This document shows positions 45,640-49,693 of a DNA stretch of 59,585 nucleotides, piece by piece (within the stretch, counting starts at the first letter, position 1; each line of letters starts with the position of its first letter). The DNA lies in NCBI GenBank assembly GCA_022925895.1, contig JAKSYS010000375.1, positions 1 through 59,585 on the forward strand, read 5' to 3'. The notes under the pieces were generated by a model. It was given only the letters and a program-made list of their open reading frames with translations. It was not told the DNA's origin and ran no database searches. Position numbers and translations under genes: made by a program. The DNA comes from Fragilaria crotonensis (Eukaryota > Bacillariophyta > Fragilariophyceae > Fragilariales > Fragilariaceae).

Positions 45640-47785
45640 ATGGCTCAACCTGTTGCTCAGATTTGGAATGGAAGAACCTCAAACATGCCTGAAAATGACT
45701 TGATGATTGACGTCAAGAAAGAAGATGCGGGGACGTCCCTTAAGGCAGGCGACGGTGGCTCTGGAGAGGAAGCAACATTTACATGGGATGACGACGGAGT
45801 ACTTAATACTCATGGCCTAATGGAACATCGGAGGCTTATAATGATTGAGAATGGAACAAAGACGAGCTTTCAAATTGGAGATGCAGTCCTATTGGAAGCA
45901 CCGAAAGGCTGCAATGAACCGTATGTCGCGAGAATCGATGGCATGTGGCAAGAAGCGGAACACCCCGAAAGAAATGGCGAATCCCTAATGATGATTCGTT
46001 GCCATTGGTATTATCGGGTCAGTATTAGAACGGCTATTCGTGTGCCGGTCGTTTTGACGATGTAACAAAACTCATTTACTTTTTCCTACAGAAAGATTCC
46101 GTTGTTCGTATGCTACCAAGTGCGAACTTTGTTGGAGAAATATCCAAAAAGATGCTTGTTAATTCCATGACAAAGAATGACTTGCTCCTTACAGACCATT
46201 GCGATGACAACGATGTGTGCTCAATTGTGGGCAAGTGCACAGTGATTGATCGACCGACAGAGGGCGCGCATCACAACAGTGTATACATATCAAGATTTAG
46301 TGCTAGCCTGACAAGAGACCAGATCCGTGTGACAACAAAGGATAAGGGGTTTCTTTGCGAAGGAAAAGTCATGAAACGTAAGGCCGTACACAAGAGTAAT
46401 ATCAAGCAGCAGAAGAAGTTGAAGTCCGATTCAATGAGTGGCGTCATGGCCGAGTCTGTGCAAGCTAAGGGTGAACGAAAAAACGCATCTCGTCACTCTT
46501 CAGAGTTGTGGGAGATGCATGGATTTTCATCACTTTCTCAAAAGAAGGCAGTCGCCAAAACCATCTCCAAACAATTGCCCGGTGACATGAGGCGATGTGC
46601 ATTTCAGGTAGGGTCTTTCTTTCTTTTTGTGAACGAACGCCAACGAATTTGGGAAAGGAGAAATAACGGTGACCCAGCGCCCTGGAGTCAGTGTATCGTT
46701 TTCAATGAATACTTCTTCTGCAATGTAAGTAAATTCTATGCAAAATATGTGGTATGGTCAAGAAGACTGCAATCCCTCATGTCTTGTAGAACTACCGTGA
46801 ATTGGACCGAGGAACCAACTACTTCCGCGACCAAATGTTGCAGCTACGGGAAAAGTACCCAACGGTAGGTCGCCAGGTCTGGCTGAGTAAAGTTCTATTC
46901 GCATCGATGTGCTATCGACTCCTTAACTTGATAGAAACGTTCGAAGCATTTGGCGGAATTCCTGAGCCGGGTGCCGTGTCCAAGTTTTTAACGTCAATCC
47001 GGGAGACGATGAAAGCAGGAAAGATTGCTTTCACGGGAGCACACCAGACTATGGGGTTCGACCGATACAACGACACCATGCACGATGTGGTCAAGTCTTT
47101 GAACAAGCTCGCGTCTGACATTTTCAACGCTGACCTGAGGAAAAGCCTAAGAGACTGTTACCATGAGGTGACCAGCATCTGCAATGTCGGTCCCTTCTTC
47201 GCATGGCAGATTACCTGCGATTTGATGGAGTGTGGCTGCTTGCCAAATTGCACGGAGAATGACTACGCGAAACTGGGAAATGGAGCTGTCAAGGGGATAC
47301 AATTGATTTTTGGGAAAGAGTGCAAGTCCGAGGTCCAGCAGGTACATGCAGCGATGCTCCTTGGCAAACTACAAAATCAAGTCTTTGCAGATCTTGGAGT
47401 TCACTTCCCCCGATTTCGTGGCAAGGAGCTGACTTTGAAAGACATCGAACACGCCTTGTGCGAGTTCAATAAGTACTACGCCATCCAACGCAGTCTGCGA
47501 ACAAGGTAAGTAGCACCGTTACAGGTTCGCTTGAGTGAGCAATTCTGTCTAACTTAAGATCTCTTTTGAGTGAACAGAAACAATGTCATGGGACAGCGTC
47601 TCATAAAGTCACGATCGTCCATGAATTTAGAGGTTTGCGGTTGTGGGGAGACGGAAGAGGTTACACGGTGTCGTAAATGTCTGAATGCTTACTGCTCTAT
47701 ATGTGATCTTCATAACGACAATTGGGCCAATCACTGGATTTGTTGGAAGTGCGTCGATTTTGATTGCATGCAATTTTCTGATTAA
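45640..47785 (+). CDS. BAH domain / DNA-base-hypermodification-like helical domain / Cys-His finger fusion protein
   Basis: Four exons (45640-46017, 46092-46724, 46790-47505, 47578-47785) with introns of 74, 65 and 72 nt, all GT-AG and frame-keeping, give 644 aa. Residues about 70-205 form a BAH domain (FQIGDAVLLEAP, ARIDGMWQ, CHWYYRKDSVVRML, RFSASL). A basic linker follows. Residues about 290-570 match the helical domain shared by 5-hmdU DNA kinases and alpha-glutamyl/putrescinyl-thymine pyrophosphorylases. Its motifs are FVNERQRIWERR, PWSQ, YFFCNNYRELDRGTNYF, CNVGPFFAWQITCDL and YAKLGNGAVKGIQ. The C terminus (about 595-640) has eight or more Cys plus two His in a PHD or treble-clef-like pattern. 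The Met at 45640 is the first in frame. In phages this group acts in thymine hypermodification. A nuclear role on modified DNA is inferred. Its stop is 65 bp from that of the convergent PGK gene. Confidence 0.8.
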
Positions 47786-47850: not shown

Positions 47851-49217
47851 TTATTGACTGCTGTCAATGTTCCCAATAGCCTCCACTCCAGGCAAGACGT
47901 CGCCTGCTAGCAACTCCAACGAGGCGCCACCCCCAGTTGAGACATAGGAGACGTCGTCGGTCTTCCCAAAGACGGCGAGCGCTGACACACTATCGCCGCC
48001 ACCAACAACTGTCACACATCCTCGAGATGTAAGATCAACAAGTAAATCGACTAATCCACGGGTACCTTCGTCAAAAGGAGGCACTTCAAAGACTCCCATC
48101 GGGCCTGTTGAACAGCATCAACGAGTGAGCCGGTTGCACGGAAGATTAATCAGGCCATCACGACGTTTTCCTTACCGTTGAAGATCACTTTCGACATTCC
48201 ATCGAGGGCGCCTGCGAATGCCGCGACAGTGTTCGGTCCAACATCAAGGCCCATGTATCCATCTTCGATTCCATGTGTTGGGACTAGATCAAACGTCCTT
48301 GTGTCTTCGACGTCCATGGGACCCTGCGGAAATGATTTTGCGCACACTGCGTCGATAGGGAGGACGAGATTCTTCCCAAGTCTTTTAGACTCCTCAATAA
48401 GCTGCAAAGCAGTTTCAAGCATACTTTCTTCGACCATGCTGTTACCAACTGGAATTCCTTGCGCCTTCAAGAAGGTGAAGGCAAGGCCACCACCAAGGAC
48501 CAGCGTATCCACCTGCCTCAACAGTCCTTGGATCACTGGAAGCTTCGTGGATACCTTTGATCCTCCAACAATAGCGGCGACGCGGTCGCCTTCTTTGAGG
48601 CGGCTGAAATCAAGAAAGTCAAGCTCTGAAGCAACCAGGCTTCCAATCCCACACAAGTGTGTGTCGAGAAGGCCAGGAACGCCTGCAGTGCTGGCATGAG
48701 CGCGGTGGCAGGTGCCGAACGCGTCGTTGATGTAGGCGTCGGCATACGATGCCAGCTTTTGCGCAAAGTCGACGTCGTTGCGCTCTTCTTGCTTGTAGAA
48801 TCTCAAATTCTCCAATAGAACAACCCCGCCGCCCTCAGCGGGCAACGAGGAGATGGCAGCATCGGCCTTTTCGCCCAAACAGTCTTCACCAAAGATCACA
48901 TTCAACTCCATGAGAGAACCAAGACGCTCTGCGGCGGGACGAAGGGAAAGTTTGGCACGTTGTTGTCCACCAACATCCTCTCCCTTCTGGACCAGCTTGG
49001 GTCGGCCCATGTGTGAGACGAGGATGGCGTTGCACTTGGAACGGAGAATTGCTTCGATGGTGGGAATTGCTCCGCGGATGCGAGAGTCGTCTGCGATATC
49101 ACCTCCGTTCATGGGAACATTGAAATCCACTCGGACAAGGATCTTGGGGGCAACGTCGCCCTTGCGGGCCTCGAGCGTCTCGAGGACGTCGAAAAGGTTT
49201 CTCTTTCGGACCAGCAT
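47851..49217 (-). CDS. PGK: Phosphoglycerate kinase
   Basis: Exon 1 (49217-48176) and exon 2 (48104-47851) flank a 71-nt intron (48105-48175) that splits the Gly codon of NGPMGVFE. The product is 431 aa, normal for PGK (about 400-420). All hallmark motifs are present: VRVDFNVP, DSRIRGAIPTI, LVSHMGRPK, INDAFGTCHRAHAS, VGGSKVSTK, GGGLAFTFL and, at the C terminus, VTVVGGGDSVSA with STGGGASLELL. It converts 1,3-bisphosphoglycerate and ADP to 3-phosphoglycerate and ATP. The N terminus (MLVRKRNLFDVL) has no signal or transit peptide, so I infer the cytosolic form; diatoms also have plastid and mitochondrial isoforms. It converges on the BAH gene. Its upstream region holds a palindromic TGACGTCA cluster. 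Confidence 0.95.
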
Positions 49218-49693
49218 GGTTTGATTGAGAATTTAGTTAAGGTTTTGCTTTGTGTTGTAATATGGTAGTGGCTTAACCTACTCAATGAGAGTGTTAAAAT
49301 CGTGGTGAGAAATGAGAATCACGATTGCCGATTGGATTTCGAAGAGAACACAAGAGAAGATCCAACTCATCATCGACATTCACTTACGAGAAATTGTGAG
49401 TGCTCTGCAATAGCCATCACTGCTTCATGTGATCGTCAACACGACCACTCCAAAAGTGAGAATCACTGACGTTAGTGTTCGCGTCCATCACGGTATGATT
49501 CATACGGTGTCTGATTCGGACAATTCTGTATCCTCTCTTGTTGATGCACTATGGAACAGCTGCCTTCAACGCATCGGGCGAAGAAATATCTTGTTCAGCA
49601 TCAAATTAGAGCGTCGATGTGCGATCATGTGTCATGTCGTCATAGCGTCACTATGGTGTGGTGCATCACACATCACGCCTCCCTAGTCACTAC

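Follow-up and report, generated by a model that had tools for sequence, protein, structure and literature searches.

The window analysed comprises 59,585 nucleotides of the diatom Fragilaria crotonensis (GenBank assembly GCA_022925895.1, contig JAKSYS010000375.1, positions 1 to 59,585 of the forward strand). Within it lies a four-exon gene (45640-47785, +), interrupted by three short introns (74, 65 and 72 nt) with GT-AG borders. Its 644-amino-acid product carries a BAH domain, a helical domain of Pfam family PF18723 (HMUDK_hel) and a Cys-rich finger, an architecture directly visible in one gene. A domain of the histone-mark-reading type is here joined to one otherwise known from thymine-decorating viruses, which hints at base handling in algal chromatin. 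The features of the gene are as follows.

45640..46017 (+), exon 1: residues 1-126, the N-terminus and first part of the BAH domain (splice model)
46092..46724 (+), exon 2: residues 127-337, a single open frame that covers the rest of the BAH domain, a basic linker and the first part of the helical domain
46790..47505 (+), exon 3: the bulk of the helical domain, from residue 338 to residue 575, with part of codon 576 (PF18723 match at 46793-47479)
47578..47785 (+), exon 4: remainder of codon 576, residues up to 644 and the stop codon, including the Cys-rich finger
45865..46256 (+), BAH domain: residues 76-181, split by intron 1 (PF01426 match)
46371..46424 (+), basic stretch resembling a nuclear localisation signal (NLS): residues 220-237, MKRKAVHKSNIKQQKKLK (read from sequence)
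46614..47479 (+), HMUDK_hel / alpha-glutamyl-putrescinyl-thymine pyrophosphorylase (aGPT-Pplase) clade 1 domain: residues 301-567, split by intron 2 (PF18723)
47636..47752 (+), Cys-rich, PHD-like finger: residues 596-634 (read from sequence)

An earlier note, made from the letters of the window, had proposed the coordinates, the four exons and both the BAH and helical domains; the splice model, Pfam and a deposited protein agreed with it on all of these. That protein, MHU86_17604 ("hypothetical protein"), is identical to the spliced product over its full length (100%). The exon model was built before MHU86_17604 was seen, although the record annotates the same contig and is thus no independent proof of transcription. 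A six-frame search located the PF18723 family at this one gene in the 62-Mb assembly.

Predicted chromatin-reading modules and their relatives

The BAH domain was matched by PF01426 at E 2.3e-10 and 40.8 bits (cut-off 30.8). When the BAH piece served as query, the nearest solved chains were BAHCC1, EBS and TNRC18 (6vil, 5z8n and 8ds8; E 2e-4 to 3e-4), and the whole protein retrieved these chains at E 0.008-0.016. Residues Y95, W123 and Y125 align with Y49, W70 and Y72 of EBS, which form its methyl-lysine cage. The alignment supports the presence of an aromatic cage of the methyl-lysine-reader type, and binding to a histone tail is predicted. In a model diatom, one study places trimethylated lysine 27 of histone H3 (H3K27me3) on 1421 of 3493 transposable elements and on only 700 genes (PMC4504042). 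Taken together, the likeness of the cage and the presence of this mark on diatom transposable elements suggest, by analogy, that the Fragilaria protein may be targeted to repressed chromatin. The basic stretch at residues 220-237 looks like a nuclear signal.

At the C-terminus, the Cys/His finger of the earlier note held up as a Cys-rich finger with eight cysteines (C596, C598, C607, C610, C615, C618, C631 and C634, as read), while neither the full protein nor its C-terminal 72 residues gave a match to PHD or any other Pfam finger. A PHD occupies the corresponding C-terminal place in some relatives. The BAH cage, the NLS-like stretch, the reader modules of relatives and the preserved invariant residues described below support the architecture and the nuclear, chromatin-linked role suggested in the note; its interpretation as a whole is partly supported.

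PF18723 is present in all 29 of the closest proteins (Fragilaria included). At E <= 0.01 these also carry a PTM/DIR17 Tudor domain (14 proteins), a PHD (6, counting P0006 and P0013 although below cut-off), a chromo domain (1) or a BAH domain (1), the sole BAH carrier being the Fragilaria protein. Residues 1-295 used as query found only the protein itself among 1364 candidates in a word-based, length-limited search. Given these two results, the BAH domain is not supported as an old part of the family. One relative of the algal clade, P0006, shows at residues 182-225 a weak match to the DNMT1 replication-foci domain (E 0.0011, below cut-off).

The algal-type proteins form one clade, with support of 98 in a quick tree (139 of the 172 domains of sufficient length, out of 220 hits) and of 100/99 in a careful tree, where they make up 30 of 67 rows. 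These 67 were hand-picked from the 139 and took their 'euk' label from the quick tree, so that the single origin is partly by construction. Twelve tree rows are credited with a chromatin domain by the database's own Pfam column, and all of them fall in the algal clade (a count that covers database rows, not the fetched loci outside the clade), whilst P0053, P0068 and P0091 belong to the clade and show no chromatin domain. The sister group of the Fragilaria protein comprises 12 rows (98/91), with Tudor listed for five. Because P0008 (MMETSP, with a PHD) and P0097 (from the diatom Corethron pennatum, with a Tudor domain) derive from transcript sets and each combine reader and helical domain on one protein, this style of fusion is expressed elsewhere.

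The helical domain

The profile of PF18723 matched residues 301-567 over positions 6-272 of 281 (E 5.8e-42, 144.4 bits, cut-off 25), a score that, like that of the BAH domain, lies well beyond chance expectation; residues 290-570 did not fall in an unrelated family, an outcome for which the note had allowed. Both motifs quoted there, YRELDRGTNYF among them, are present. Across 176 aligned rows (31 from the algal clade, 5 phage, 55 cellular loci, 18 viral loci and the remainder database proteins), R309, N337, R340, D343, R380, D481 and E562 are invariant to printed rounding, and E341, T346, G500, G502, C561 and K565 are conserved at 97-99%. Every one of these residues is kept in Fragilaria. Such a pattern of invariant polar residues suggests an active or ligand site, although we know of no activity of PF18723 by itself.

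The central helical domain was well predicted in the structure model, in which the BAH domain was modelled without confidence. Of known folds, those of the phage 5-PmdU glycinyltransferase and of helix-hairpin-helix (HhH) DNA glycosylases come closest to its predicted one, the best matches being transferases; on the strength of this fold, an action on modified bases is plausible. D481, E557 and C561 align with residues conserved in the amino acid:DNA transferase family (ADDT), where the position of E562 is occupied by lysine. Analysis A2 used 7 of 15 domain pieces, from 29 proteins; of 21 decoy families, one was set aside after an ADDT domain was found in it. In the 644-residue protein, Pfam matches up to E 1 included neither PF18724 (ADDT) nor PF00730 (HhH-GPD), and the P-loop kinase family PF18748 had no Pfam match. 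The note had likened the domain to both 5-hmdU DNA kinases and aGPT-Pplases. The latter likeness stands, as the helical partner domain of aGPT-Pplase clade 1; a kinase was ruled out, since in phages the P-loop sits in a different protein or domain.

Genomic settings of PF18723

Phage PAC4 has its PF18723 gene (annotated aGPT-Pplase1) beside that of a PF18748 P-loop 5-hmdU DNA kinase, and the PF18724 amino acid:DNA transferase (aGPT-Pplase2) follows further on, with three genes between. Kinase and helical domain are fused in one protein in phage Goe26, whilst the neighbour in phage Koji belongs to a different P-loop family, PF18751. A similar cassette is described for phage SN1 (PMC9476957). 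Set against this gene layout, the diatom possesses the helical partner and neither the kinase nor the named transferase. Among 50,697 phage records, tblastn detected the domain in 141 at E <= 0.01 and in 281 at E <= 1, with some 20-30% identity among the matches listed.

One label among the phages is probably wrong: the PHROG family that matches the fused Goe26 protein (L005:5056-6966) end to end, phrog_800, is called 'terminase small subunit', and the PF18723 protein of Klebsiella phage phi1_146029 (L007:3902-5122) bears the same label. Separately, viral-type genes joining class-II glutamine amidotransferase and ADDT domains were seen at L087:1909-3762 and L093:3268-5253, with the same cluster in L086 and L050. 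These loci also hold a PF18723 gene, and an ammonia-fed amination of thymine by the amidotransferase-ADDT genes is conceivable.

Prokaryotic copies are frequently found in other surroundings. A weak screen for P-loops (pattern in the first 45 residues of open reading frames (ORFs) within 2.5 kb; 49 of 79 loci) returned one close to the PF18723 gene in 5 of 35 cellular and 2 of 14 viral loci, one of the cellular cases being, by eye, an elongation-factor-like GTPase. Ten (alpha)proteobacterial loci share a neighbourhood of housekeeping-like genes, and the shared neighbour clusters contained no phage cassette. Because cellular copies often have no kinase nearby and do share neighbourhoods, the domain probably serves a function beyond the kinase cassette. 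The ten genes (L039, L043, L045, L047, L048, L051 and L054-L057) stand alone on the chromosome, with a lytic transglycosylase (Pfam SLT_2) among their common neighbours. Of the 79 loci, 23 contained a thymidylate-synthase-like ORF, 13 among the 19 viral and 10 among the 60 cellular ones; in the Pfam scan of neighbours, likewise a weak screen, which covered 54 of 96 ORFs (one itself a PF18723 gene) and showed 25 of 72 families, five matched thymidylate synthase. In three haloarchaea (L025, L029 and L032) an ORF that appears TIR-like by eye lies near the PF18723 gene, possibly a defence setting. A 2026 Science paper lists 5-hydroxymethyluracil kinase among domains validated in anti-phage defence, and aGPT-Pplase as predicted (PMC13092281).

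The Fragilaria assembly was searched in six frames for pathway partners, with sensitivity lowered by introns. PF18748, which matched two of three control phages, and PF18751, which matched one control genome, were not found; PF18724, PF18746, PF12851 and PF20515 were likewise not found and matched nowhere else either, so that for these four absence is not established. Within those limits the assembly yielded neither a kinase nor an amino acid:DNA transferase nor a TET/JBP partner, and C5 DNA methylases, the positive control, did match. A viral insertion was thought unlikely given the introns and reader domains (the flanking genes are without tool annotation). The next open frame downstream, 48150-49232 (-), resembles phosphoglycerate kinase by eye.

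Interpretation and comparison with known systems

The best explanation as a whole, to which we give slightly less than an even chance, is one nuclear protein whose chromatin-reading modules address a DNA-base-handling domain. That the protein is a chromatin-addressed base handler is likely; catalysis on a modified thymine stands at about even odds. In the mechanism we propose, the BAH domain would bind a methylated histone lysine resembling H3K27me3, and the helical domain would flip a pyrimidine out of the helix and act at the 5-substituent of a modified thymine, by transfer to, or removal from, a 5-hydroxymethyl or 5-phosphomethyl group. The reader would in this way confine the base chemistry to repressed chromatin. 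The partner search, which points to no source for a modified thymine, strongly warns against assuming a complete phage-like pathway.

The protein might instead be a non-catalytic double reader, its helical domain recognising modified or damaged thymine and its BAH domain a histone mark, with no base changed. Phage PF18723 accompanies a separate catalytic kinase, adjoining or fused, and may thus serve there to recognise the substrate, and the Fragilaria domain is joined only to reader-type modules; however, the set of seven invariant polar residues fits a catalytic or ligand site better than a binding surface, and the nearest folds are enzymes, which leaves this reading unlikely overall. Still less probable is a base-repair enzyme, a relative of the HhH-type glycosylases that removes oxidised thymine such as 5-hydroxymethyluracil (5-hmU) from chromatin. 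DNA glycosylases, many of them MutY, do dominate the fold list (39 of the first 43 rows by title) and the hairpin matches the HhH-GPD profile, but the Pfam match to HhH-GPD is absent and the best fold matches are transferases. Moreover, the catalytic aspartate of HhH-GPD enzymes lies some 20 residues past the hairpin glycine, whereas invariant D481 lies about 10 past G471, making standard glycosylase chemistry doubtful.

We consider equally improbable an accessory subunit that presents chromatin 5-hmU to a kinase encoded elsewhere. The pairing with a kinase in PAC4 and Goe26, and with another P-loop family in Koji, would favour it; the failure to find PF18748 or PF18751 in the assembly, despite the PF18748 control matches, and the scarcity of P-loop ORFs at cellular loci speak against it. 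That the gene model has joined two separate genes is very improbable indeed. BAH accompanies PF18723 in no other relative, and the N-terminal query found only itself, yet exon 2 holds residues 127-337, parts of both domains, in a single open frame. Barring an unseen intron inside exon 2, the two domains are therefore not separate genes, the fusion artefact was ruled out, and the note's proviso that their exons might belong to different genes is contradicted; the transcript-derived P0008 and P0097 likewise carry reader and helical domain on one protein.

The class of protein is not new, as Iyer and colleagues reportedly predicted such modification systems in stramenopile algae in 2013. Within the reach of the searches, four points are new: a family member with a BAH domain, a predicted structural link to the folds of glycosylases and of the 5-PmdU glycinyltransferase, a reader cage that has been preserved, and a single clade whose readers are exchangeable. 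None of the papers listed in the searches, which left subscription papers mostly outside, characterises a eukaryotic PF18723 member, so absence in print is not established. A broader, tentative proposal, which we think rather doubtful, is that diatoms and related algae harbour a family of enzymes directed to chromatin and related to the phage proteins of thymine hypermodification. Such enzymes would write, trim or erase a modified thymine of nuclear DNA that has yet to be discovered, and interchangeable histone readers would guide them, in Fragilaria to H3K27me3-like chromatin. Should the base chemistry prove real, the epigenome of a major algal group would gain a layer based on thymine, and a single polypeptide would connect histone marks with the processing of DNA bases. 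With one gene found in the genome and its central domain well predicted, the old question of hypermodified bases outside viruses becomes directly testable.

Among known systems, the HhH-GPD glycosylases (OGG, AlkA/Mag1, MutY) differ from the Fragilaria domain in their invariant residues and in the PF00730 match that it lacks. The 5-PmdU glycinyltransferase gp46/PUGT of phage PaMx11 (ADDT, PF18724; 8z2m, 8z2n) shares about 10% identity with it and has lysine in place of invariant E562, whereas Fragilaria has no PF18724 match. Phage PF18723 proteins (those of PAC4 and SN1, M6-like, and of Goe26) agree with the diatom protein in the Pfam domain, along its full length, and in the invariant residues; their copies lie beside or are fused to a P-loop kinase, whereas the diatom copy is without one and carries BAH and finger instead. 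The BAH domains of BAHCC1, EBS and TNRC18 are the nearest solved sequences to that of Fragilaria, in which the cage aromatics are kept, and to our knowledge none of the three carries a PF18723 domain. Algal proteins in which PF18723 is joined by a Tudor, PHD or chromo domain belong to the same clade and follow the same plan of reader and helical domain, with or without a finger, but lack the BAH domain, which only the Fragilaria protein shows.
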